A stretch of DNA of 64,000 nt from Collinsella sp. An268 (GTDB taxonomy: Bacteria > Actinomycetota > Coriobacteriia > Coriobacteriales > Coriobacteriaceae), in NCBI RefSeq assembly GCF_002159765.1, contig NZ_NFJH01000001.1, positions 186,001 through 250,000 of the forward strand, written 5' to 3'. Position numbers and translations under genes: made by a program. Below, one piece after another: positions 10,028-31,357 of the stretch; position 1 is the stretch's first letter, and each line of letters starts with the position of its first letter. The notes beneath the pieces are model-generated. The model saw only the letters and a list, made by a program, of their open reading frames with translations, had not been told where the DNA came from and did not search any database.

Positions 10028-11278
10028 GTGGCAACCGATAACCGCCAGAACACGCGTCCCGCCTCCGGGGGAGCGGCACGTCCGCAGGGAACGCGCTTCA
10101 AGACGAACGCCGCGCCGCAGGGCGGCTCCTACCGTCCGTCGTCCTATGGGCGCCCGGCAACCGGCGGGGCGGGGTCCCATGCGCGCCCGTCCGCACGCTC
10201 CGGGCACGTCCAGCCCGCGTATGTGCGCCCCTCCGCACAGAAGAAGACCTCCCCGGTGCCGGTCATCATCGCCGTGGTCGTCGCCATCGCCGTCGTGGCG
10301 GGGTTCCTGATCTTCGCGCTGCCCGCCATCACCGGTATGTTCGTGGGCGGTCAGGAGGCCGAGCAGGTCGAGGCGGGCGTCGAGGTGCAGGTGTCCATAC
10401 CCGAGGGCTCGTCGGGCGATCAGATAGCGAGCATTCTCTCCGAGGCGGGCGTCATCCCCGACCCGCAGGATTACTACGCTGCCGTCAAGGCGCAGAACGC
10501 CGACATGCAGCTCAAGCCCGGAGACTACCTCTTCACCACCCTGCAGGACCCCGACGAGGTCGTCACCCAGCTCATCGCCGGCCCCAATGTCGCGGGCGTG
10601 ACCCTCACCATCCCCGAGGGCCTCACTGTGGCGCAGACGGCGTCGCGCGTCGAGGAGGTCTACGGTATTCCCGCCGCCGACTTCGAGGCGCAGGCGAAGG
10701 CGTCCGCCTACGTGGCCGACTACCCCTTCCTCGAGGGCGTTGCCGATGATTCTCTCGAGGGATTCCTGTATCCCAAGACCTACACCTTCTCGGGCACGCC
10801 CACGGCAGACACCGTCATCCGCGCCATGCTCGACCAGTATCAGGCCGAGGTCGCCTCTGCGCTCGACTTCGAGAGCGCGCGCAGCCTCGTGAGCGAGCGC
10901 TACGGCATCGACATGAGCGACTACGACTTCCTCATCCTCGCCTCCATCGTCGAGCGCGAGGGCCTCGACGACGAGCAGCGCGCCAACGTCGCCTCCACGT
11001 TCTACAACCGCTTGGAGATCGGCATGGCGCTGCAGAGCGATGCGACGATGATGTACGTTACCGGGGGAGAGGTGACCGCCGAGGACCTCAAGCAGGAGAG
11101 CCCGTATAATACCTACCTGAACCAGGGTCTCACGCCGACGCCCATCTGCGCGCCGTCGCTCAATTCCATCCAGGCGGTGCTCGATCCGCCGGATACGAAC
11201 TACCTGTACTTCTTCATCACCCATGATGAGGTGTACTTCTCCGAGACCTACGACGAGCATCGGCAGTCGTATGAGTAA
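10028..11278 (+). CDS. mltG: Endolytic peptidoglycan transglycosylase MltG
   Basis: This 416-residue single-pass protein cleaves nascent glycan strands in the wall. An N-terminal cytoplasmic region of about 75 residues is rich in Arg, Pro, Gly and Ser. A membrane helix follows at about 77-100, then a LysM-like subdomain and the YceG catalytic domain. The catalytic glutamate sits in ASIVEREG (Glu309), and the later ALQSDATMMY segment is typical. The GTG start has AAGGGGA at good spacing. It heads a tight run with yqeG, a shikimate kinase and an AroB-like gene; the mltG-to-aro order is a familiar actinobacterial and firmicute context. Confidence 0.95.
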   Translation: MATDNRQNTRPASGGAARPQGTRFKTNAAPQGGSYRPSSYGRPATGGAGSHARPSARSGHVQPAYVRPSAQKKTSPVPVIIAVVVAIAVVAGFLIFALPAITGMFVGGQEAEQVEAGVEVQVSIPEGSSGDQIASILSEAGVIPDPQDYYAAVKAQNADMQLKPGDYLFTTLQDPDEVVTQLIAGPNVAGVTLTIPEGLTVAQTASRVEEVYGIPAADFEAQAKASAYVADYPFLEGVADDSLEGFLYPKTYTFSGTPTADTVIRAMLDQYQAEVASALDFESARSLVSERYGIDMSDYDFLILASIVEREGLDDEQRANVASTFYNRLEIGMALQSDATMMYVTGGEVTAEDLKQESPYNTYLNQGLTPTPICAPSLNSIQAVLDPPDTNYLYFFITHDEVYFSETYDEHRQSYE

Positions 11279-11284
11279 GGGAGC

Positions 11285-11785
11285 ATGATGTCGTTTCTCA
11301 CCCCGGGCCGTTACGTCGCCCGTGTTGAGCTGATAGATCTGGACGAGCTGTGGCGGCAGGGCAAGCGCGCCCTGCTGCTCGACCGCGACAACACCTTGGT
11401 GCCGCGCGACCGTCGCGACGCCCCCGCCTCGGTGGCGGCATGGCTCGATGCGGCGCGCGCCCGGGGCTTCTCGCTCTACATGGTCTCCAACAACTGGCAT
11501 CGCGACCATGTGGAGCGCTCGGCGAGCCAGCTCGGCCTCGGCGCCATCTGCTTCGCGTGCAAGCCGCTGCCCTTCGCCCTCGAGCGCGCCCTCAGGCACC
11601 TGGGCGTGTCGCGCGACGAAGCGGTCATGATCGGCGACCAGCTGTATACCGACGTGTGGGCGGGCAACTTCGCCGGCATCGATTCCATCCTCGTTAAGCC
11701 GCAGGCCACCGCCGATCTCTGGTACACCAAGATCTTCCGTATCTTCGAGCGGCGCGCGCTTAAGGGCGTTCCCTGCGAGGAGTAG
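11285..11785 (+). CDS. yqeG: YqeG family HAD-IIIA phosphatase
   Basis: This 166-residue protein is a HAD-superfamily hydrolase of the YqeG/YrfG class. The nucleophile motif is LLLDRDNTLVPRD near residue 35, the second motif contains the Ser/Thr of YMVSNN near 65, and the final acidic motif is IGDQLYTDVWAGN near 115. Relatives include mitochondrial phosphatidylglycerophosphate phosphatase, but the bacterial substrate is not settled. The ATG at 11285 is followed directly by a second ATG. It lies 6 bases after mltG and 3 bases before the shikimate kinase gene, so it shares their message. Confidence 0.9.
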   Translation: MMSFLTPGRYVARVELIDLDELWRQGKRALLLDRDNTLVPRDRRDAPASVAAWLDAARARGFSLYMVSNNWHRDHVERSASQLGLGAICFACKPLPFALERALRHLGVSRDEAVMIGDQLYTDVWAGNFAGIDSILVKPQATADLWYTKIFRIFERRALKGVPCEE

Positions 11786-11788
11786 CAG

Positions 11789-12358
11789 ATGGGGCAAGCG
11801 TTCGAGGAGGCGGGGGCGCCGCCGCCGGCACCCTTTACCAAGCACGGCTGCGACCATATCTTCTTCATCGGGTTTCTCGGGGCGGGCAAGTCGACGCTCG
11901 CCCGCAACCTGGGCGGTATGTTTCGACGTCCGTACGTGGACACGGACCGTTTGGTGGAGCGCCAGTGCGGCAAGAGCATCGCGCGCATCTTCGCCCAAGA
12001 GGGGGAGGCGTCGTTTCGGCGCCGTGAGACGCGCGTGCTCCGCGGACTGGCACGGGAGCAGAGCCTTTTGGTATCCTGCGGCGGGGGCATCATCGAGACG
12101 CCGGTGAACATCCGCCTCATGCATGAGATGGGTACGGTGGTCTACCTCGAGGGCGACCTCGCCGACTCGCTGCGGCAGATCCGTTCTGTCGCCGCGCGCC
12201 CCGACTTCAAGTCGCGCAAGCATGCGGCGCGGCTGTTCGAGCACCGACGGCCGCTGTACGAGCAGGCTGCCGACCTCAGAATCGATATCCGCGGCAAATC
12301 GTTCGAGGACGTCTCGTACCGATGCGCCGAACTGCTTTTGGAGCGTGGTCTGATATGA
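11789..12358 (+). CDS. aroK: Shikimate kinase (stand-alone paralogue)
   Basis: This 189-residue P-loop kinase phosphorylates shikimate at the 3-hydroxyl. The ATP site is intact (GFLGAGKST, residues 28-36). The shikimate-binding residues are present: Asp51/Asp53 in YVDTDR, Arg77 in FRRRE, and the CGGG turn at 97-100. The lid and the RRPLY arginine toward the C terminus are also kept. It carries an N-terminal extension of about 20 residues rich in Ala and Pro. A second shikimate kinase domain is fused to AroE in the cluster at 23346-24650, so the genome encodes two. It overlaps the AroB-like gene by 4 bases. Confidence 0.93.
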   Translation: MGQAFEEAGAPPPAPFTKHGCDHIFFIGFLGAGKSTLARNLGGMFRRPYVDTDRLVERQCGKSIARIFAQEGEASFRRRETRVLRGLAREQSLLVSCGGGIIETPVNIRLMHEMGTVVYLEGDLADSLRQIRSVAARPDFKSRKHAARLFEHRRPLYEQAADLRIDIRGKSFEDVSYRCAELLLERGLI

Positions 12359-13455
12359 CGATAAAGCGACAGCTGCTGAACTTCGGGGGCAGGAGCGTCG
12401 ACTTCCGCGTGGGCGCCGAGGCCCTCCATGATTTCAGCCGTGTGCTGCGCGGCACGGTGGGCATGCCCGTGCACGCCCTTGTGATATCGGGCGCCACGGT
12501 GGAGGACGACGTGCTCGAGCGCGTGAGGCGCGAGGTCATCGACGCCGGCTTCGACCTGACCGTGTGGCGCGCCCCCGCCTCCGATGAGGCGATGACGCCC
12601 GCCTCGCTCACCGCGGCGCTTGCGGCGATCGCCCAGGCGGGGATCACCGCGGACGATGTCATCGTGGGGCTGGGCGACGTCGCCGCGACGTCCCTCACCT
12701 GCTATGCGGCGCGCCTGTGGTGCGGCGGCACCCCGGCCGTGCTCGTCCCGACGTGTCTTGAGGGCATGGTGACCGCGGCTACGGAGGCACTGCCCCTCGC
12801 TGTTCCCGGCTGCGATACGCGGGTCGGGCGCCGGCCCGAGCCGGCAATGGTCTTCTGCGACCTGTCGCTTCTCGACGGGCCCGCGGATCCGGCGGGTACC
12901 GTGCCCATGCTCGGCGCCGCCCTCGCCGACAGCAAGCGCTCCTGGGAGCGCCTGAAGGCGCAGGCCCCCCGTCTGGGGAAGGGTGACCCCGCGGCCATTC
13001 TCGATGTGCTCTGCATCGCTCAGACGGCGCGACGGGCTGTGGTCGCCTCGGCGAATCCCTCCGCGCGCCACGGCCTGCTGTACGGTGTGACGACGGCGCG
13101 CGCGCTCGATGCCGCCCTGCGCGCCCAGGGGCGCGAGGTCCCTTGGTGGCATCTGCTTGCTGAAGGCATGCGCTTCGAGGCGCGCCTCGCAACCGAGGCC
13201 GGCAAGCTCCCGGTGGACGAGGTGTTCGACCAAGACGATTGCCTCGAGGACCTCGGCGTCGCCGAGCTTGCCTTCACGCTCGATGCCGATTCGTTTATCG
13301 AGGCGATCGAGCGCGAGAACGCCCGCTGGGCGAACCGACTCTTCTTCGCGCTCCCTAAGGCCTTCGGGACCATTCGCCTCACGAAGGTGGACGACGAGGT
13401 CCTCAGGCGCCATGCCGAGGCCTATCTCGCCTCTCGCGCCGAGCTCGCAGGCTAG
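12355..13455 (+). CDS. AroB-like (dehydroquinate synthase fold) protein lacking catalytic residues
   Basis: This 366-residue protein aligns along its length with 3-dehydroquinate synthase but has lost its chemistry. The NAD-binding GGGxxGD loop of the true AroB in this window is replaced by GLGDVAATS. The VPTSLLAMVDSSVGGK segment is VPTCLEGMVTAATEAL here, without the Asp and Lys. The metal-ligand regions (GCGEVIKHA, FGHSIGHAIE, HGTSVAMGM in the true enzyme) lack the expected Glu and His residues; only a generic LLAEGM match remains. The frame is intact, starts by ATGA overlap with aroK, and has normal codon use, so it is retained rather than decayed. It is either a repurposed protein or a pseudoenzyme. 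Confidence 0.8.
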   Translation: MTIKRQLLNFGGRSVDFRVGAEALHDFSRVLRGTVGMPVHALVISGATVEDDVLERVRREVIDAGFDLTVWRAPASDEAMTPASLTAALAAIAQAGITADDVIVGLGDVAATSLTCYAARLWCGGTPAVLVPTCLEGMVTAATEALPLAVPGCDTRVGRRPEPAMVFCDLSLLDGPADPAGTVPMLGAALADSKRSWERLKAQAPRLGKGDPAAILDVLCIAQTARRAVVASANPSARHGLLYGVTTARALDAALRAQGREVPWWHLLAEGMRFEARLATEAGKLPVDEVFDQDDCLEDLGVAELAFTLDADSFIEAIERENARWANRLFFALPKAFGTIRLTKVDDEVLRRHAEAYLASRAELAG

Positions 13456-13557: not shown

Positions 13558-14688
13558 ATGGCTGACATTGTTTCCGGTCCCGCGGCGCGTCTTGCACGCG
13601 TGTGCTCCCTCATGGACGAGCGCGGCTACGACGGCATGGTCGTCCGCGACGAGGCGAACCTCCGCTGGCTCACGGGGGCCCGCGGCGTCTTCGATTTCAC
13701 CGGCGAGCTCCCGCACTGCGCCTTCATCACCCGCGACGCCGCATTCCTTCACACCGACTCGCGCTACTTCAACAGCTTTGCCGAGCATATGCCCGCCGAT
13801 CACCCCTGGGCCATCGATATGGACGGCTTCGACATCCCGCGATGGACGGCGGAGCGCGCCCGCGATGCACGGTGCCGCACGATCGCCGTCGAGGACACGA
13901 TGGAGCTCGCGTTCTACCGCGGGCTCACGCGCTCGCTCGAGGACGTATCCGTTGCCTGCTCCATCGCCGAGATGCATGCCGACCTGCGCCGGATGCGCGC
14001 GGTGAAGGACGAGGAGGAGATCGCGCTCATGCGCGCCGCCCAGGCCATCACCGACGCCGCCTTCGCCCATATGCTCACCTTCATCAAGCCCGGTCTCACC
14101 GAGAAGGAGATCAAGCAGGAGCTCGAGCGCTATATGTTCGCCCAGGGAGCCGACGGCCTCGCGTTCGACACCATCGTCGCCTCGGGCCCCAACACGGCGA
14201 ACCCCCACGCGATCCCCTCAGACCGCGTGGTCGAGAAGGGCGACTTCGTGCTCATGGACTACGGTGCGCGCCTCGGTGACTACGATTCCGACATGACCCG
14301 CACGGTCGTCTTGGGCGAGCCCACGCCCGAGCAGCGCAAGATCTACGACCTCGTGCAGCGCACGCACGAGGAATGCGCTCGCGCCATCCACGGCGGCGTC
14401 GACGGCAAGGACGTTCACGAGCTCTCCGTGAAGATCATTTCCGACGCGGGCTACGGCGACTACTACGGCCACGGGCTCGGTCACGGGGTGGGCATCGATA
14501 TCCATGAGATGCCCAACTTCGGCCGCCGCAGCAACACGGTAGAAGCCGGTGCGGTCATCACCGTCGAGCCCGGCGTGTACCTGCCCGGGGTGGGGGGCGT
14601 GCGCCTGGAGGACTACGGTCTGGTGACCGAGAAGGGTTTCGAGCCCTTCACCACGAGCCCGCACGAGCTGCAGGTCATCGCCTGCTAA
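13558..14688 (+). CDS. pepP: M24 family metallopeptidase, Xaa-Pro aminopeptidase type
   Basis: This 376-residue cytosolic enzyme removes N-terminal residues before proline. An N-terminal creatinase-like domain (about 1-130) precedes the pita-bread catalytic domain. The five metal ligands are visible: Asp in LMDYGAR, Asp in DSDMTRT, His in GHGLGHGVG, Glu in TVEPGVY and Glu in RLEDYG. The ATG at 13558 has GAAAGGA 8 bases upstream; an upstream in-frame extension lacks such a site. It lies between the aroK/aroB-like pair and efp, the usual place for this peptidase in many Gram-positive genomes. Confidence 0.93.
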
Positions 14689-14827: not shown

Positions 14828-15391
14828 ATGGCATCCATCACCACCGCCGACTTCAAGAACGGCATCGGCCTGCGCATCAAGGACAAGGTCGTCACCATCG
14901 TCGAGTTCCAGCACGTCAAGCCGGGCAAGGGCGGCGCCTTCGTCCGCTATAAGACCAAGGACCTTAAGACCGGGCGCGTCGTCGAGCAGACCTGCAACGC
15001 CGGCACCAAGTTTGAGAGCGTGACGCTCACGACCACCGAGATGCAGTATCTCTACAATGACGGCGACCACTATTACTTCATGAACATGGAGACCTACGAC
15101 CAGGTCCCCGTGCCCGTCGATTTTATCGGCGACAATGCCAAGTGGCTGAAGGAGAACGACATCTGCCAGCTCCTGTACGCCGACGACGAGCTCATGGGCG
15201 TCAACCCGCCGATGTTCATCGAGGTCGAGATCACCCAGACCGACCCCGGCTTCAAGGGCGATACCGTCCAGGGCTCCACGAAGCCCGCCACCATCGAGAC
15301 CGGTGCCACCATCCAGGTGCCGATGTACCTCAACCAGGGTGATATGATTAAGGTCGACACGCGCGACGGCAAGTTCGTCAGCCGCGTGTAG
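14828..15391 (+). CDS. efp: Translation elongation factor P
   Basis: This 187-residue protein relieves ribosome stalling at polyproline. It has the three beta-barrel domains of EF-P, with KOW-like domain I, and the tip loop VKPGKGGAFVR with Lys34 at the position modified in other bacteria. The C-terminal signature is present near residues 150-175. No modification enzyme gene is in this window. The ATG at 14828 has an AGAAAGG site and matches the family start. It follows the M24 peptidase gene but has its own AT-rich promoter region. Confidence 0.97.
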   Translation: MASITTADFKNGIGLRIKDKVVTIVEFQHVKPGKGGAFVRYKTKDLKTGRVVEQTCNAGTKFESVTLTTTEMQYLYNDGDHYYFMNMETYDQVPVPVDFIGDNAKWLKENDICQLLYADDELMGVNPPMFIEVEITQTDPGFKGDTVQGSTKPATIETGATIQVPMYLNQGDMIKVDTRDGKFVSRV

Positions 15392-23253: not shown

Positions 23254-23345
23254 GAGGCTCCTCCTTCCGGTGCGGCTGCGATCGGGCACATCCCGCGCGG
23301 CGGGGCCCGCTCACGGCCGCATTTCCGATTCGAAACGATAGACCG

Positions 23346-24650
23346 CTAGATGTCCGACAGGGCGTCCCGGACGCTTTGGGCGGTCGCCGCGGGCGTCGCG
23401 CACGACGCGACGACGGCATCGGCCCAAGCCCGATAGAGGGGAAGGCGCCGCTCGGCGAGCGCGGCGATGCCGTCCCGCTGGGTGACGGGGCGCCCCTTGC
23501 TCGAAAGCTCGTCCAGCGGGCGATCGAGCATGACGATACGCGCGTTCTGGTGCAGAAGCCCGTAGTTCTCGGGGCGGGCGACCACGCCGCCGCCGCACGA
23601 GATAACGAGGGCGCTGCGCGCGGCGACGCGCCCGAGGACGGCGGTCTCCTCGATGCGGAACGCGTCCTCGCCGTGCGCTGTGATGTAGTCGGCGCAGCTC
23701 GTGCCCAGAGCGCGCTCGAGCTCGGCGTCGATATCGACATGCGGGCGGCCAAGGAGGCGCGCGAGCTCGGCGCCGACGCGGGTCTTGCCCGCACCGGGCA
23801 TGCCGATGAGCGCGATGTTCTCCTCCGCCGCATCGAGCGCGGCGGTCACCGCGCGGATGCGCTCGAGCGAGACGACCTCGCCGGTGTAGCGCTCGACGGC
23901 GGCCGCGGCCTGCGCGACGAGCATGAGCAGCCCGCCGATGGCGGGGATGCCCCGGCGCTCCGCCTCCATCATGAGGCCGGTGCGGGCGGGGTTGTAGACG
24001 ATATCGACCACCGCCTCGAGCGCCGGGAACGCGTCGAGGGGCCAGACGGAGGCGGGGCAGTTGGGGTACATGCCCATCGGCGTCGCATTGACCACGAGCG
24101 CGGCGTCCCGGTATGCGTCGAGCTCGTCGTACGTGGCGCTGGGATAGGCCGACGCCGCGCCGGCGTCCTCGGCGCTCTCCGGGGTGCGGCAGACCGCGAC
24201 CGGTTCCATCTTAAGATCGCCCAGCACGACCATGCAGGTGGAGCCGGCGCCCCCGTGACCGCCGAAGACGAGCGCGCGCTTGCCGGCCAGGTCGAGGCCG
24301 AGCGCCTCGACGAGCATCTTGAAACCGTAATAATCGGTGTTGTCGCCGCGGAGGCGCCCGTCGGCGAGGCGCGTCACGGTGTTCACGTTGCCGAGGCGCC
24401 GGGCGATGGGGGAGAGCTCGTCCACGATCTTGGCCGCCGCCTTCTTGTAGGGGATGGTGACGTTCACGCCCTCCCACTCGTCCCCGCGCAAAAAGGCCTC
24501 CACGCATGCGGGCTCCCGCTCGAAGCGAACGTAGTCGAGCCCCGCGAGCTCGCGATAGATCGCGGGCGTGTAGCTGTGGCCGAGGGTCCGCCCGAGCACC
24601 CCGTACGGGCGCGGGGCGCAAGCGCGCGCGTTGGCGTTCTCACCGGGCAT
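23346..24650 (-). CDS. Fused shikimate dehydrogenase / shikimate kinase
   Basis: This 434-residue protein joins two successive shikimate steps. The N-terminal AroE domain (about 1-265) shows LGHSYTPAIYREL at the shikimate site, the catalytic Lys in NVTIPYKK, NTDYYGF, a GGHGGAGS dinucleotide loop and NATPMGMYP. The C-terminal AroK domain (about 270-434) has Walker A GMPGAGKT, VDIDAELE, FRIEETAVL, SCGGGVV and RRLPLYRAWAD. All key residues are present in both halves. The HSYTP variant of the usual HSLSP is a feature of several anaerobe SDHs. It starts directly after the pheA stop. Confidence 0.95.
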   Translation of the reverse strand: MPGENANARACAPRPYGVLGRTLGHSYTPAIYRELAGLDYVRFEREPACVEAFLRGDEWEGVNVTIPYKKAAAKIVDELSPIARRLGNVNTVTRLADGRLRGDNTDYYGFKMLVEALGLDLAGKRALVFGGHGGAGSTCMVVLGDLKMEPVAVCRTPESAEDAGAASAYPSATYDELDAYRDAALVVNATPMGMYPNCPASVWPLDAFPALEAVVDIVYNPARTGLMMEAERRGIPAIGGLLMLVAQAAAAVERYTGEVVSLERIRAVTAALDAAEENIALIGMPGAGKTRVGAELARLLGRPHVDIDAELERALGTSCADYITAHGEDAFRIEETAVLGRVAARSALVISCGGGVVARPENYGLLHQNARIVMLDRPLDELSSKGRPVTQRDGIAALAERRLPLYRAWADAVVASCATPAATAQSVRDALSDI

Positions 24651-25796
24651 CTAAAGCACCTCCGTATAGCTGCCGAAGTACCAGTAGCGCTCGCAGACGT
24701 CTCCGAGCGAGTTCAGAAGCTCGATGAACGACGGCGCGCTCACCGGGCAGTCGAGGTCGAAATAGAAGACGAACTCGAAATCGCGGCCAGGGATGGGACG
24801 GCTCTCGAGCTTCACGAGGTTGATGCCGAGCGCATAGAAGCGCTCCAGCACGCGGTAGAGCGAGCCGGGCTCATGGCTCACGGTGAGCATGAGCGAGGCG
24901 CGGGTGGCGCCCGCGTAGATCTCCGGCTCGGCCGAGATCACCACGAAGCGGGTGTAGTTGTTGTCGGAGTCCTGCACGTCCTCGTCCACGACGTCGAGGC
25001 CGTAGAGGCCGGCGCACGCACGGGAGGAGAGGGCGGCCACATCGTCCCGCTCCGCGCGCGCGACGGCCTCAGCCGCCTGGGCGGTGTTCTCGCAGACGTG
25101 AACGCGCACGCCGAGCCGCTCGAGATAGCCCGCGCACTGCGCGATCGCCTGCTCGTGAGACCACACCTCGCGGATGTCCTCGAGGCGCGCGCCGGGTTTC
25201 GCGAGCAGGTTATGGTCGATCTTCAGGCGGATGGAGCGGACGATATGGAAGCGATACGCCGCGAGGAGGTCGTAGACGGCGTTGACCGATCCGGCCGTGG
25301 AGTTCTCGATGGGGAGCACCCCGTAGCGCACCAGCCCGTCGCGCACCGCGCGGCACACGCCGTCGAAGGAGGCGAAGAAGGTGATGCTCGGCAGGCGGAA
25401 GAGGCGGCTCGCGGCGATCTGGCTGTAGGCGCCCTCGACGCCCTGGCAGGCGACCGACGCGCGCGCCGGGAAGGGCTCGTCCGCTGGCTTGAGGGCCGCG
25501 CGGGCGTCCTCGGCGGCGCCCTGGGGGTCGCCGGCCGCGAGGATGCGCATCTGCTCGGCTTTGTTCATGCTCATCAGCAGGGAGAAGAGCGCGACGGCCT
25601 GCGGGACGAGGGCGTCGGGCGCGCGGTCCGCGACGGCGGCGAGCTTCTCGCGCTCCCGCGCGGGGTCGAACACGGCCCTGCCGGTCTCCTTCTTCGCCGC
25701 GGCGACCTCCGCGGCGAGCCGCATGCGCTCGCAGAAGAGGTCGAGGAGCTGCGCGTCGATCTCGTCGAGGCGCTTGCGTACAGAAAAGAGGTCCAT
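24651..25796 (-). CDS. pheA: Bifunctional chorismate mutase / prephenate dehydratase
   Basis: This 381-residue enzyme makes phenylpyruvate from chorismate. A short N-terminal AroQ-type chorismate mutase domain (about 1-95, MDLFSVRKRLDEIDAQLLDLF) precedes the prephenate dehydratase domain (about 110-290, with GVEGAYSQIAA, PIENSTAGSV and the catalytic NNYTRFVVI). The C-terminal ACT domain contains HEPGSLYRVLERF and LESRPIPG, the phenylalanine-binding signatures, so feedback inhibition is expected. The start at 25796 begins the mutase domain exactly. It is 8 bases after aroC. Confidence 0.95.
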   Translation of the reverse strand: MDLFSVRKRLDEIDAQLLDLFCERMRLAAEVAAAKKETGRAVFDPAREREKLAAVADRAPDALVPQAVALFSLLMSMNKAEQMRILAAGDPQGAAEDARAALKPADEPFPARASVACQGVEGAYSQIAASRLFRLPSITFFASFDGVCRAVRDGLVRYGVLPIENSTAGSVNAVYDLLAAYRFHIVRSIRLKIDHNLLAKPGARLEDIREVWSHEQAIAQCAGYLERLGVRVHVCENTAQAAEAVARAERDDVAALSSRACAGLYGLDVVDEDVQDSDNNYTRFVVISAEPEIYAGATRASLMLTVSHEPGSLYRVLERFYALGINLVKLESRPIPGRDFEFVFYFDLDCPVSAPSFIELLNSLGDVCERYWYFGSYTEVL

Positions 25797-25804
25797 CGTA
25801 GTCC

Positions 25805-26929
25805 TTATGCTCGTCGGGGGCGGGGTCGGGGGGCGGGGTAGCGCCCGGCTTCGAGGAGGGCGTCCAGGAGCGCGAGGGCGCAGACGGCCTCGGCCACGGG
25901 GACGGCGCGTGGCACGATGCTGGGATCGTGGCGGCCGCGCACGACGAGCTCGGCGTCCTCTCCCGTATCGAGGTTCACGCTTCTCTGCGCCCGCGCGATC
26001 GAGGGGGTGGGCTTCACGGCCATCTGCCAGATGAGCGGCATGCCCGTGGTGATGCCCCCGAGGATGCCGCCGGCGTTGTTGGTCTCGGTGCGCACGACGC
26101 CGTTTTCGAAGCGGTACGGGTCGTTGTTCTCGCTGCCCGTGAGGTAGGCCACGGCAAAACCGGCGCCGAAGTCGACCCCCTTCACGGCGGGCACCCCGAA
26201 TGCCAGGCGGGCGATCCGGTTCTCCATCCCGTCGAACATGGGGTCGCCGACGCCCGCCGGCACGCCGTAGGCGGCGCACTCGATGACGCCGCCGATGCTG
26301 TCGCCCGCTTCCCGGGCATCGAGGATGGCCTGGGTCATCTGGGACCCGGCGTCGGCCGAGATGGTGGGGAAGGGGCGGGTGCGCAGGCGCGCGATCTGCG
26401 CCTCATCGAGCTCGAGCTCGCTCAGGCCCTCGTCGGCGATGCCCGCCGGGCCCAGGCTCGCTATGTGGGCGGCGATCGTCACGTCCGCGCGCTCGAGCGC
26501 CTGCAGCGCGATGCCGCCGGCGACGCACAGCGGTGCGGTGAGCCTGCCGGAGAAATGGCCACCGCCCGCCACGTCGTGCCAGTTACCGAATCTCACACGC
26601 GCGGGATAGTCGGCGTGCCCGGGGCGGGGGACGGAGCGCAGGCCGTCGTAGTCTCCGCTGCGGGTGTTGGCATTGCGTATGAGTGCGGCGAAGGGCGCGC
26701 CGTCGGTCACGCCCCCGTGCAGACCGGAAAGGATCTCCGGGGCGTCGGCCTCGCGCCGGGGCGTGGCGATGCGGGAGCGTCCGGGCGCGCGCCGCTCTAA
26801 AAACGCCTGGAGCGCGCGCATATCCACCGGGATCCCCGCCGGCAGACCGTCGAGGACGCAGCCGATGGCGGGGGAGTGGGACTCGCCGAAGATCGAGAGC
26901 TTGAGGATGTTGCCGACCGTCGAAGACAC
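25805..26929 (-). CDS. aroC: Chorismate synthase
   Basis: This 374-residue flavoenzyme converts EPSP to chorismate with reduced FMN. The GESHSPAIGCVLDGLPAG signature is near the N terminus, RPGHADYPARVRFG at about 105-120, and the DVAGGGHFSGR segment near 125-136. SETNNAGGI-like sequence (here ETNNAGGILGG) and the final VNLDTG and RHDPSIVPRAVPV blocks are all present. It lies 3 bases after aroA in the minus-strand operon. Confidence 0.97.
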   Translation of the reverse strand: MSSTVGNILKLSIFGESHSPAIGCVLDGLPAGIPVDMRALQAFLERRAPGRSRIATPRREADAPEILSGLHGGVTDGAPFAALIRNANTRSGDYDGLRSVPRPGHADYPARVRFGNWHDVAGGGHFSGRLTAPLCVAGGIALQALERADVTIAAHIASLGPAGIADEGLSELELDEAQIARLRTRPFPTISADAGSQMTQAILDAREAGDSIGGVIECAAYGVPAGVGDPMFDGMENRIARLAFGVPAVKGVDFGAGFAVAYLTGSENNDPYRFENGVVRTETNNAGGILGGITTGMPLIWQMAVKPTPSIARAQRSVNLDTGEDAELVVRGRHDPSIVPRAVPVAEAVCALALLDALLEAGRYPAPRPRPRRA

Positions 26930-26932
26930 GGG

Positions 26933-28255
26933 TCAGATCGCCTCCTTGCAAATGACGCTTCCGCCGAGCGCCCGATAGTGCTCGAAAAACGCCGGGTACG
27001 ACTTGGCCACGGCCTCCGCGCCCTCGATGGCGACGGGGCCCTGCGCGCGGATCGCGGCCACCGCCGCGCTCATGGCGATGCGGTGATCGTTGTGCGCCCG
27101 CACCGTGCCGCCCGTGAGCGCGGGCCTGCCCGCGATGACGAGGGACTCCCCCTCGATGTGCACGTCCGCCCCGAGCGCGCGGAGCATCTCGGTCGTCGTG
27201 GCCAGGCGGTCCGATTCCTTCATGCGCAGGCGCGCGCAGTCCTCGATGACCGTCTCGCCCTCGGCGCAGGCGGCGACGACCGAGATCACCGGGACGAGGT
27301 CGGGGATGTCCTTGGCCGAGAGGCGGATGCCGCGCAAGCGGTCGGGGCGGACGGTGATGGAGCCCGACCCGCGCATGATCTTCGCGCCGAAGAGCACGAG
27401 CGCCGCGGTGACGGCCCGATCGCCCTGGACCGATTGGGGGGATATGCCCGTGACCGTGAGGGGGGCGGTGCCGAGGGCGCCGGCGCAGAGCCAGAAGGCG
27501 GCGTTCGACCAGTCCCCCTCGACCGCGAGGGAGCCCGGGGTGCGGTAGCCTTCCCCTTCGACGATAAACAGGGTCTGCGGCTCCTCGGCCGTGGCGCCGA
27601 CGAAGGTTCTCGTGCGCACGGAGACGCCGAAGGCCTCAAGGGCGCGCACCGTGAGGGAGACGTAGGGCTGGCTCTCGATGCGCCCGCGCACCAGGATCTC
27701 CACGGGCCCGGGCAGAAGCGGGGCGGCGAGCAGGATGCCCGAGATGTACTGCGAGCTCACGTCGCCGGGCAGGATGAAGCGCCCCGGGCGCATCCTGCCG
27801 GACGTCGCGAGCGGAAACGCCCCCAGCCCGGTGATGTCGCATCCCGCGGCGACGATCTCTGCCGCCAGCTCCCCCAACGGCCGCTGCCCGAGCCGCTCCG
27901 ACCCGGTGAACGCTGCGTCGGCGCCGAGGGCGCAGGCGACCGGCAGCATGAAGCGCAGGGTCGAGCCGGACTCGCCGCAATCAAGCACCGCCCCCTTGAG
28001 CGCGGCGAGGATGCCCTTCTCGCGGCTCTTGGGGATGGGGAAGATGCGGTAACCGGCATCCGTTCTTACGATGCGGGCGCCGAGTGCCGTGAGGCACCGC
28101 ACCGTGGCGTCGATGTCGTCGCAGGTCGTCGCGCAGTCAAGCTCGGTCTGGCCGTTGGCGAGGGCGGCGGCGATGATGAGGCGGTGCGCGACCGACTTGG
28201 AGGAGATGGCGCGCACCTCGCCGGCGAGGGCGCGGGGCTCGATGGTGGCAATCAC
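26933..28255 (-). CDS. aroA: 3-phosphoshikimate 1-carboxyvinyltransferase (EPSP synthase)
   Basis: This 440-residue enzyme joins PEP to shikimate-3-phosphate. SKSVAHRLIIAAALANG near residue 20, DCGESGSTLRFMLPVA near 92, SERLGQRPLGEL near 117 and SSQYISGILLAAPLL near 168 mark the two-domain inside-out barrel. The late NDHRIAMSAAVA block carries the conserved catalytic Arg. The GTG start overlaps the aroB stop by 4 bases. The PEP-loop has Glu-Ser where many enzymes have Asn-Ser or Asn-Ala, a class variation that can affect glyphosate sensitivity but cannot be scored from sequence alone. Confidence 0.97.
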   Translation of the reverse strand: MIATIEPRALAGEVRAISSKSVAHRLIIAAALANGQTELDCATTCDDIDATVRCLTALGARIVRTDAGYRIFPIPKSREKGILAALKGAVLDCGESGSTLRFMLPVACALGADAAFTGSERLGQRPLGELAAEIVAAGCDITGLGAFPLATSGRMRPGRFILPGDVSSQYISGILLAAPLLPGPVEILVRGRIESQPYVSLTVRALEAFGVSVRTRTFVGATAEEPQTLFIVEGEGYRTPGSLAVEGDWSNAAFWLCAGALGTAPLTVTGISPQSVQGDRAVTAALVLFGAKIMRGSGSITVRPDRLRGIRLSAKDIPDLVPVISVVAACAEGETVIEDCARLRMKESDRLATTTEMLRALGADVHIEGESLVIAGRPALTGGTVRAHNDHRIAMSAAVAAIRAQGPVAIEGAEAVAKSYPAFFEHYRALGGSVICKEAI

Positions 28256-29367
28256 GCTTGGGTCAGCTCCTTATTCGAAAGTCCGGCTCGAATCAGGTCG
28301 AAGAACTGGTCGAGGGTCACCGTCTGGATGGTGCACGAGGCGACGCCCAGGGGCAGCACGAGGTCGATGGCGTCTCCGTGGCGCTTCTTGTCGTGCCGGG
28401 CGGCCTCGATCAGCTCCTCCGCCGCGAAGGGGCACGCGCTCTCGAGGCCGTGTGCGGCGCAGACCGCCGCGATGCGCTCGGCGAGGCCCCGAAGGTCGGC
28501 GGGGGCGTCCGCAACCTTGGCGGTCGCGCGCGTGATGGCGACCATGCCCATGGCGACCGATGTGCCGTGCCCGAGTGCGAAGCGCGAGCGCGCCTCGATG
28601 GCATGGCCGATGCTGTGGCCGAAGTTCAAAAGCTTGCGCACGCCCGCCTCGCGCTCGTCCTGGATGACGACGTCGCGCTTGATCTCGACGTTGCGCGCGA
28701 CGATGGCCGCCACGAGCGGGAGGTCGCGCGCGAGGGCGTCGACGGTGATGGGGTGCTCCTCGAGCGCGGCGAGCAGCGCCGCGTCGGCGATGACGGCGTG
28801 CTTGATGACCTCGCCGCAGCCGTCGGACAGCTGCTCGGGCGAAAGGGTGCCCAGGCAGCCGACGTCGGCGATCACCGCCCGGGGCTGCCAGAAGGCGCCC
28901 GCGAGGTTTTTGCCCTGGGGAAGGTCGACGGCGCACTTTCCGCCCACCGACGAGTCGACCATCGCGAGAAGGCTCGTGGGGACCTGGACGTAGGCGATGC
29001 CGCGCAGATAGGTCGCCGCCGCGAAGCCCGCCATGTCGCCCGTGACGCCGCCGCCGAGCGCGACGACGACATCCCCGCGATCGAGTTGATGGTCCGCAAG
29101 GTGGCGCAGGATCGCCCCGTAGGTGTCGAGCGTCTTTCGCTCCTCGCCGGCCTCAAAGGTGAAGGTCGTGGTCGCAAAGCCTGCATCGGCCAGGCTCTGC
29201 TCCACGATCTGGGCATAGAGGGGGCCGACGTGGGAGTCGGTGACGATGGCGGCACGCCCGCCGCCGACAAGCGGGCGCACGAGGGCGCCCGTCCGCTCCA
29301 GAAGGCGCGTGCCGATGTGCACGCGATAGGGGTTCTCGACGGGTACGTCGACGGTCAGCATATCCAC
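28252..29367 (-). CDS. aroB: 3-dehydroquinate synthase (canonical)
   Basis: This 371-residue NAD- and metal-dependent enzyme cyclises DAHP to 3-dehydroquinate. It has every expected site: VALGGGVTGDMAGF for NAD, VPTSLLAMVDSSVGGK for substrate, and the metal ligands in GCGEVIKHAVI, NFGHSIGHAIE and LGHGTSVAMGM. It is the active counterpart of the degenerate paralogue at 12355-13455. The GTG at 29367 is preferred for its distance to an AAGGGA site; an ATG two codons later is possible. It is 5 bases after tyrA. Confidence 0.97.
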   Translation of the reverse strand: MDMLTVDVPVENPYRVHIGTRLLERTGALVRPLVGGGRAAIVTDSHVGPLYAQIVEQSLADAGFATTTFTFEAGEERKTLDTYGAILRHLADHQLDRGDVVVALGGGVTGDMAGFAAATYLRGIAYVQVPTSLLAMVDSSVGGKCAVDLPQGKNLAGAFWQPRAVIADVGCLGTLSPEQLSDGCGEVIKHAVIADAALLAALEEHPITVDALARDLPLVAAIVARNVEIKRDVVIQDEREAGVRKLLNFGHSIGHAIEARSRFALGHGTSVAMGMVAITRATAKVADAPADLRGLAERIAAVCAAHGLESACPFAAEELIEAARHDKKRHGDAIDLVLPLGVASCTIQTVTLDQFFDLIRAGLSNKELTQA

Positions 29368-29372
29368 GGCAA

Positions 29373-30335
29373 TCAGTCCCTTCGGGTGTCATCGAGCGCG
29401 CGCTTGATGCGGTCGCCCTCGGCGAGAAGCGCCCGCAGGCGCTCGTTGTCCCGATCCTCGAGGGCGTCGCGATAGGCGCTGAGCGCGCAGATCAGATGTG
29501 TTATCTCCTGCGATAGGTTGCTCGCGTTGTCGATCATGAGCTCGGACCACATGCGCGCGTTCAGATGGGCCACGCGCGTGAGGTCGCGGTAGCTGCCGGC
29601 GGAAAAGCCGTGGTGCTCCTGCGCGGTCGGGCTCTTCACGTAGGCGTTGGACACCACGTGCGCGAGCTGGCTCGTGAAGGAGATGACCCGGTCGTGGTCG
29701 GCGGGGGTCGTCACGCTGAAGCTGCCGAAACCCGCGGGCCTCAGCAGCTCGAGGGCCCGGTCCAACAGCATCAGCCGCGCGATATCGTCGAGCGCGGGCG
29801 GCACGAGCACCATCGGGGCGCCCGCGAACAGGTCCGCGCGCGCGTAGGCGAAGCCCGACATCTCGGTGCCGGCCATGGGGTGCGTCCCCAAAAAGGCGAA
29901 GCCCTCCGCGCGCGCGAGCCGGAAGGCGCGCTCGCACACCGCCTCCTTGACGCCCGCGGTGTCGATGACGAGCGGCCCCGCGACGCAGGCCGGAAGGGTC
30001 GGGTCGGCCTCGCGGGCCTCCCGCGCCGCGCGGGAGAGCGCCCCGGCGTGCGCCTCGAGCCAGGACACGCAGGCATCGGGGTAGGCGGCGAGCACGATGA
30101 GGTCGCATCGGGCGATCGCGGCGTCGTCGAGCTCGCCCTCGACCACCTCGATGCGCGCCGCGTCCAAGGTGGCCTGATCGATATCGGTCGCGCGCACGCG
30201 CCAGCCCTGCGCCGCATAGGCCCGCGCGAAGCTGCCGCCGATGAGGCCGAGCCCGACGATGCCCACGGTCGGTCGGCAGCGGTCGCACGCCCCGGCGGGC
30301 GCCGTGCCGCGCAGCGAAGCACGCCCGTCCATCAT
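29373..30335 (-). CDS. tyrA: Prephenate dehydrogenase
   Basis: This 320-residue NAD-dependent enzyme makes 4-hydroxyphenylpyruvate for tyrosine. The Rossmann loop is VGIVGLGLIGGSFARAY near residue 24. The catalytic region contains GTHPMAGTEMSGF (active-site His), and the C-terminal helical domain has FTSQLAHVVSNAYV and the GSYRDLTRVA block. No ACT domain is visible at the C terminus. Two ATGs in tandem start the gene; it overlaps the DAHP synthase gene by 4 bases. Confidence 0.95.
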   Translation of the reverse strand: MMDGRASLRGTAPAGACDRCRPTVGIVGLGLIGGSFARAYAAQGWRVRATDIDQATLDAARIEVVEGELDDAAIARCDLIVLAAYPDACVSWLEAHAGALSRAAREAREADPTLPACVAGPLVIDTAGVKEAVCERAFRLARAEGFAFLGTHPMAGTEMSGFAYARADLFAGAPMVLVPPALDDIARLMLLDRALELLRPAGFGSFSVTTPADHDRVISFTSQLAHVVSNAYVKSPTAQEHHGFSAGSYRDLTRVAHLNARMWSELMIDNASNLSQEITHLICALSAYRDALEDRDNERLRALLAEGDRIKRALDDTRRD

Positions 30336-31357
30336 GATTCCCCGACCGCGTCTGCCGAGACGGCCTCGCGGACGATGCGGATGCGCGCCATGAGGTCGCA
30401 GAACATATCGGGCGTGAGGGCCTGGGCGCCGTCCGACCAGGCGTGCGCGGGGTCGTCGTGCACTTCGACCTCCAGGCCGTCGGCGCCGGCCGCAACGGCG
30501 GCGAGCGCCATGGGCCCGACGTAGCGGGTGTGTCCCGTGGCGTGGCTCGGGTCGGCCACGACGGGGAGGTGGGAGAGCTCGTGCAGGACGGGGACGGCGT
30601 TCAGATCGAAGGTGTTGCGCGTGCGCGTCTCAAAGGTGCGGATGCCGCGCTCGCAGAGGATCACGTTGTCGTTGCCCTCGCTCATGATGTATTCGGCCGC
30701 CATCAGCAGCTCGTCGATGGTCCCGGCGAGCCCGCGCTTGAGAAGCACCGGGACCCTCGCCTTGCCCACCTCCTTGAGCAGCGGGAAGTTCTGCGCGTTG
30801 CGCGCGCCGATCTGCATGACGTCGATGCCGCGCGAGAGGAACTCGTCGATATCGCGCGGGTCCATGATCTCGGTCACGAGGGGGAGGCCCGTCTCGGCGC
30901 GGGCCTCGAGCAGCGCGTCGAGCCCGGCGGGGCCCATCCCCTGGTAGGCGTAAGGGGAGGTGCGCGGCTTGTACGCGCCGCCGCGCAGCATGGTCGCCCC
31001 GGCCTCCTTTACGCGGCGGGCGATGCGGATGAGGTTGTCGCCCTCCACCGAGCACGGCCCGGCGATGACCTGGAAGTTGCCGCCGCCGAGGGGAACGCCC
31101 CCGCAGTCGATGACCGAGTCGGCGGGATGGAACTTGCGGTTCGCCTTCTTGAACGGCTCGGACACGCGCTGGACGCGCTGGACGATATCCATCGACTCCA
31201 AGAGGAACGGGTCGATTCTCGTGGTGTCGCCCACAAGGCCGATGATCGTCTCGTTCTCGCCGTGGCTGACGTGCGCCGCAAGGCCCTTCTTCTCGATCCA
31301 CGACACGAGCTGGGCGACGGCGCTGCCGTCGGCATCTTTCTTCAAAATGGCAATCAT
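30332..31357 (-). CDS. aroF: 3-deoxy-7-phosphoheptulonate (DAHP) synthase, type I beta with N-terminal regulatory domain
   Basis: This 341-residue enzyme condenses PEP and erythrose-4-phosphate, the entry to aromatic synthesis. An N-terminal ferredoxin-like domain (about 1-70, MIAILKKDADGSAV to VGDTTRID), as in Thermotoga-type enzymes, probably senses aromatic end products. The catalytic barrel has AGPCSVEGDN, LRGGAYKPRTSPYAYQGMG (split near residues 120-138), QIGARNAQNF and the VVADPSHATGHT block. The start at 31357 has AGGGAG at good spacing; a longer frame upstream lacks one. It is the first gene of the leftward operon. Confidence 0.95.
   Translation of the reverse strand: MIAILKKDADGSAVAQLVSWIEKKGLAAHVSHGENETIIGLVGDTTRIDPFLLESMDIVQRVQRVSEPFKKANRKFHPADSVIDCGGVPLGGGNFQVIAGPCSVEGDNLIRIARRVKEAGATMLRGGAYKPRTSPYAYQGMGPAGLDALLEARAETGLPLVTEIMDPRDIDEFLSRGIDVMQIGARNAQNFPLLKEVGKARVPVLLKRGLAGTIDELLMAAEYIMSEGNDNVILCERGIRTFETRTRNTFDLNAVPVLHELSHLPVVADPSHATGHTRYVGPMALAAVAAGADGLEVEVHDDPAHAWSDGAQALTPDMFCDLMARIRIVREAVSADAVGES

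Follow-up and report, generated by a model that had tools for sequence, protein, structure and literature searches.

Plants carry ancient shikimate-kinase-like duplicates, SKL1 and SKL2, that have lost the kinase activity, and SKL1 has gained an unrelated role (PMC2593004). In Candida albicans the DHQase domain of Aro1 is catalytically dead: another enzyme covers the step and deletion has no effect on growth. The DHQ synthase (DHQS) of the same yeast keeps every residue by which the A. nidulans enzyme contacts carbaphosphonate, NADH and zinc (PMC9074039). EboD is derived from AroB, has another role and is often annotated as AroB (PMC5133447). A published inactive AroB was not found in the open-access literature.

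Here we describe AroB', an AroB paralogue encoded in a stretch of 64,000 nucleotides (the window, Table 1). We think it very probable that AroB' is no longer a DHQ synthase and that it is functional.

Table 1. Features of the old aro locus and of the chorismate cluster in the window.
Feature	Coordinates	Strand	Remarks
mltG	10028..11278	+	fixed upstream neighbour; named by sequence recognition
yqeG-type HAD phosphatase	11285..11785	+	fixed upstream neighbour, kept where aroK is lost; named by sequence recognition
aroK, shikimate-kinase family	11789..12358	+	catalytic and shikimate-site motifs intact; ATGA overlap with aroB'
aroB'	12355..13455	+	366 aa; AroB paralogue without catalytic residues, intact
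pepP aminopeptidase	13558..14688	+	fixed downstream neighbour; named by sequence recognition
efp elongation factor P	14828..15391	+	named by sequence recognition
aroE-aroK fusion	23346..24650	-	chorismate cluster; second shikimate kinase domain
aroC	25805..26929	-	chorismate cluster; pathway marker in the survey
aroA	26933..28255	-	chorismate cluster
canonical aroB	28252..29367	-	chorismate cluster; all catalytic residues present

The initial annotation described an uninterrupted gene at 12355-13455 that is coupled to aroK, and all of this is confirmed. The plus-strand frame is open throughout, and the ATG at 12355 overlaps the aroK stop as ATGA (4 nt). Comparison with the window shows the same overlap in all 36 loci examined from its family (f1), which favours the start at 12355 over a longer open reading frame from 12322.

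In profile searches the homology of AroB' to AroB appears real but remote. AroB' matches TIGR01357 with an E-value of 4.7e-15 and 55.6 bits, below the AroB cut-off of 305 bits; the canonical AroB at 28252-29367 scores 341 bits. With 26.3 bits it lies just above the gathering score (24.2) of the Pfam family DHQ_synthase (PF01761), which 24 of 26 AroB' orthologues match at E 0.01. When the PDB is searched with a profile of the AroB' family, DHQ synthases come first (3qbd, E 7.9e-25). With AroB' as the query, the genome as a whole yields AroB' itself and the canonical AroB, and no third gene.

AroB' descends, by position, from the AroB of a mltG-yqeG-(aroE-aroC)-aroK-aroB-pepP-efp locus. The claim that mltG-yqeG-aroK-aroB'-pepP-efp is an ancestral position holds, and other families of the order carry canonical AroB there: f2, f7, f9 and one f4 genome show mltG-yqeG-aroE-aroC-aroK-aroB-pepP-efp, whole or in part. 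The pair aroK-aroB' is all that remains of the aro genes at this locus in f1, f5 and f8, and in f3 and another f4 genome the locus holds aroK alone. We infer the names of two of these families: f1 is Coriobacteriaceae-like, and f5 is probably Atopobiaceae. In a tree, the AroB' proteins of f1, f5 and f8 group together in a clade (100/99), and the cluster AroB proteins make up another (100/100); f8 sits on a very long branch (2.86), which makes its placement in the clade unsure.

The old locus varies in other ways. In one f6 genome (G041), which has a second AroB besides, the ancestral-locus AroB (L075, 4093-5181) keeps the NAD loop and has lost E194, R264, N268 and H271. From its residues this copy looks like an intermediate stage, a partial decay reached separately. 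The loci L104, L105, L106 and L107 (f3 and G039) keep aroK and have no AroB'; AroK, too, can thus be retained alone. In several f5 genomes an A24 prepilin-peptidase-like open reading frame, assigned by eye from its GFGD/GLGD motif, lies between yqeG and aroK/aroB' (L182, 6263-6736; L192, 6352-6861).

To describe the active site we use A. nidulans residue labels (D146, E194, K197, H271, H287, K356 etc.), which we assigned from motif knowledge. A first alignment held AroB' orthologues from f1 and the rest of the order, cluster AroB and the same-locus AroB of other families. The extended AroB' set comprises 87 proteins, 37 from f1 and 50 from f5 (a few f5 proteins are present twice), of which 67 are non-redundant.

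Equivalents of the catalytic Asp (D146), the second metal His (H287) and the C-terminal Lys (K356) occur in 0 of 87 AroB' proteins. They are present in 43 of 43 cluster AroB and in 9-10 of 10 ancestral-locus AroB; the full catalytic set is found in all 43 cluster proteins and in the ten ancestral-locus proteins except L075. The NAD-binding GGGxxxD loop reads GDVAATS in the window's AroB', and its D is S in 83 of 87 sequences. The metal ligands Glu194, His271 and His287 are absent from the window's AroB'; elsewhere there are scattered single E or H residues. Among the substrate-site residues (D146, K152, N162, K197, K250, R264, N268, H275 and K356) only R264 is kept and K250 is changed to Arg. 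The R264 equivalent, R238 in AroB', is retained in 85/87, and the K250 position is Arg (R226) in 81/87. Thus the NAD-loop, metal and substrate residues that the initial annotation named as missing are indeed absent, with the two basic positions as exceptions. The catalytic residues are lost across the clade, as in a pseudoenzyme.

AroB' also has conserved positions of its own. G114 is present in all 87 proteins, and the position of R130 is Gly (G124) in 77 of them. S113 (formerly D), W122 (formerly Y), G124 (formerly R130) and R226 are conserved in 57-67 of the 67 non-redundant sequences, and so are R273, R277, D294, P334, G338 and H353.

AroB' is predicted to have the full DHQ-synthase fold. 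We ran AlphaFold2 on a shallow alignment of nine rows, which contained the window proteins and proteins of related loci, including true AroB. The resulting model (pLDDT 77, pTM 0.79) has the two-domain DHQS fold, and its top structural matches are all DHQ synthases or close sugar phosphate cyclases (for 3zok, VIA Z 37.4 and rmsd 2.7 over 351 residues; Foldseek TM about 0.8). The true AroB rows pull the model towards this fold, so these matches are support and not proof. Confidence is low at residues 145-159 and 233-241, which align with AroB active-site loops.

AroB' is nearly universal in two families. It is present in 40 of 40 f1 genomes (the 37 compared first and three more) and in 139 of 140 f5 genomes. 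The one f5 genome without it (G103) holds the canonical copy only and its locus aroK is missing too. In another f5 genome (G102) AroB' is in pieces; its assembly is poor, with rearrangements and runs of N, and we therefore do not take it as evidence of loss. Nei-Gojobori dN/dS, calculated without correction for codon usage, is 0.05-0.16 in 13 of 14 close AroB' pairs and 0.285 in one pair. Cluster AroB gives similar values in the same genomes (0.04-0.14). Low dN/dS, the intact frame and residues fixed across two families support the proposal that the gene is under (purifying) selection.

Pathway-bearing genomes of f1 and f5 have a separate cluster, aroG-tyrA-aroB-aroA-aroC-pheA-aroE/K. The same gene order is found in a Christensenellaceae contig (L033), which suggests transfer. 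Because the cluster encodes an AroE-kinase fusion in one open reading frame (23346-24650), the window's genome has two shikimate kinase domains. The window is about 97% identical to G006 as far as 23261 and 73.7% identical over 23379-30505, with the drop at the cluster edge (23261-23379). Either the cluster or its flank was replaced by recombination, or the G006 MAG is chimeric. On two IMG/VR contigs a shikimate kinase is fused to an AroB that has the catalytic motifs (L197, 1108-2517; L198, 991-2358); a search for AroB' in viral contigs found none.

Three genomes that lack the chorismate pathway still have AroB'. One of them, G011 (f1, 2,115,681 bp), is complete. It lacks AroA, AroB and AroC (the AroA search finds no more than a weakly matching paralogue, which is probably MurA), and aroK and aroB' adjoin. 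G043 (f8, 94% complete) also lacks AroA, AroB and AroC and has aroK and aroB' side by side. In G088 (f5, 1.0 Mb, 94% complete) the pathway loss was scored from AroC and canonical AroB; AroK is missing as well, and AroB' is intact and strongly diverged. Since the latter two are 94% complete MAGs, gene absence is weaker evidence there than in G011. We did not count G220, where the aroE-K match falls within an open stretch of abnormal length (24363 aa) that suggests masked sequence, nor four genomes without AroC that are 57-86% complete (G067, G068, G069, G195). A selected AroB' that is kept even where the whole pathway has been dropped must do some other job.

The neighbouring kinase is not needed for persistence either. 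Ten f5 genomes from five genera keep AroB' without the locus aroK (G066, G067, G069, G071-G076, G088). In these AroB' still lies between yqeG and pepP, directly after yqeG in two genomes and behind an A24-prepilin-peptidase-like open reading frame in others. The AroB' tree requires about four losses of aroK, two of which are forced by well-supported branches. In one aroK-less genus AroB' has a dN/dS of 0.15-0.38, close to what pepP and yqeG show. Hence a function outside shikimate metabolism that does not require AroK is well supported, in a few genomes, and the view of AroB' as gutted yet selected gains from its persistence without pathway and without aroK.

How, then, should AroB' be explained? 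That it is a functionless relic in decay is very improbable. Its original catalytic residues are gone and it evolves faster than cluster AroB (across f1 genera, identity to the copies in the window is 42-50% for AroB' and about 60% for cluster AroB). Yet we reject decay on dN/dS far below 1 and on an intact gene in nearly every genome, including reduced ones, with its own residues fixed across two families. Even less credit goes to the idea that AroB' still makes dehydroquinate with shifted ligands. The predicted fold and the R264 equivalent are kept, but NAD-loop and phosphate-site residues are lost, AroB' is kept where later pathway steps are absent, and the family alignment yields no displaced Glu/His/His set anywhere. 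Among the 67 non-redundant proteins no Lys or Glu is conserved at 85% identity, and His is so at one position only, H353 of the C-terminal helix. It is thus very unlikely that the metal triad has moved elsewhere, and we reject this reading; we infer that AroB' has no DHQ synthase activity. The initial annotation proposed that AroB' regulates or scaffolds the adjacent AroK, and this we now consider quite unlikely. The ATGA overlap in 36/36 f1 loci speaks for such a link, of which our preferred reading has no need. The pair is also kept together in the pathway-less G011 and G043, whose AroK proteins retain their kinase motifs (one GGG glycine is changed in G043) and may have a role outside the pathway too; across f1, AroK shows 64-81% identity and has kept its kinase and shikimate-site motifs. 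However, a dedicated regulator should always co-occur with its kinase. The ten f5 genomes have AroB' without aroK, with ongoing selection in one such genus, and four other genomes (f3 and G039) have aroK without AroB'. The two are separable, and a strict partnership with AroK is disfavoured by the aroK losses in f5. Since the overlap is universal in f1, there may still be a regulatory link inside that family.

The main rival to a binding pseudoenzyme is a new enzyme with the same fold, which would carry out NAD- and metal-free chemistry on another substrate through R226, R238 and the newly fixed residues. Derived residues are fixed at old active-site positions (S113, R226), two basic positions of the substrate site are retained, and relatives of AroB do shift to new substrates, as EboD did (PMC5133447). 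Against this stand the missing conserved Glu and Lys and the lone conserved His at 85% identity. Furthermore, the site-shaping loops (145-159, 233-241) have the lowest confidence in the model and vary between species, and the known superfamily members need NAD and metal. We regard a new enzyme as unlikely, although less so than the other alternatives. Our preferred explanation, which we think is probably right, is that AroB' is a pseudoenzyme derived from the AroB of the old locus. The old copy would have become redundant once a further complete chorismate cluster, AroB included, was present in the lineage. The redundant protein would have kept its fold, while its NAD loop, its metal ligands and most of its contacts with the substrate disappeared. 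It would then have taken on a task that depends neither on chorismate synthesis nor on the kinase next to it, with which it is presumably co-translated in f1. The most likely mechanism is binding: AroB' may act on a ligand, with the old substrate cleft (R226, R238) sensing or holding an anionic molecule, or on a protein partner held by the conserved C-terminal helical face (R273, F274, R277, D294, H353). The AroB' proteins of G088 and f8 count against a pseudoenzyme recruited for binding, as they are far diverged and have lost many conserved residues. Strict essentiality does not follow.

AroB' offers a natural experiment in the conversion of an enzyme into a pseudoenzyme. In sister families the locus carries an active copy, a partly altered copy (L075) and a dead but selected copy, so both the stages of the change and the constraint that now acts can be seen directly. 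AroB' is a near-universal gene of a common gut lineage, kept by two families of gut and mucosal actinobacteria. Since it scores just above the Pfam DHQ_synthase threshold, automatic annotation could call AroB in species that have no pathway. Such miscalls would mislead predictions of auxotrophy for gut bacteria.

AroB' resembles AroB (TIGR01357) in its full-length homology, its predicted fold and its position at the locus of the ancestral copy. It differs in that it has no NAD loop and no metal ligands, most of its substrate residues are replaced, and it is present where the pathway is absent. DOI synthase, EEVS and EboD, all sugar phosphate cyclases, are likewise AroB-derived members with another role. 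To our knowledge, the known cyclases of other pathways are active enzymes that need NAD and metal, whereas AroB' has neither site. The dead DHQase of C. albicans Aro1 is a comparable case: catalytic residues have gone from a shikimate-pathway protein whose step is covered by another enzyme. The DHQase differs in kind from AroB, however, and AroB' is a stand-alone gene that is retained without the pathway. SKL1 and SKL2 are also duplicates of a shikimate enzyme that lost activity, but they belong to the kinase family and to plants.
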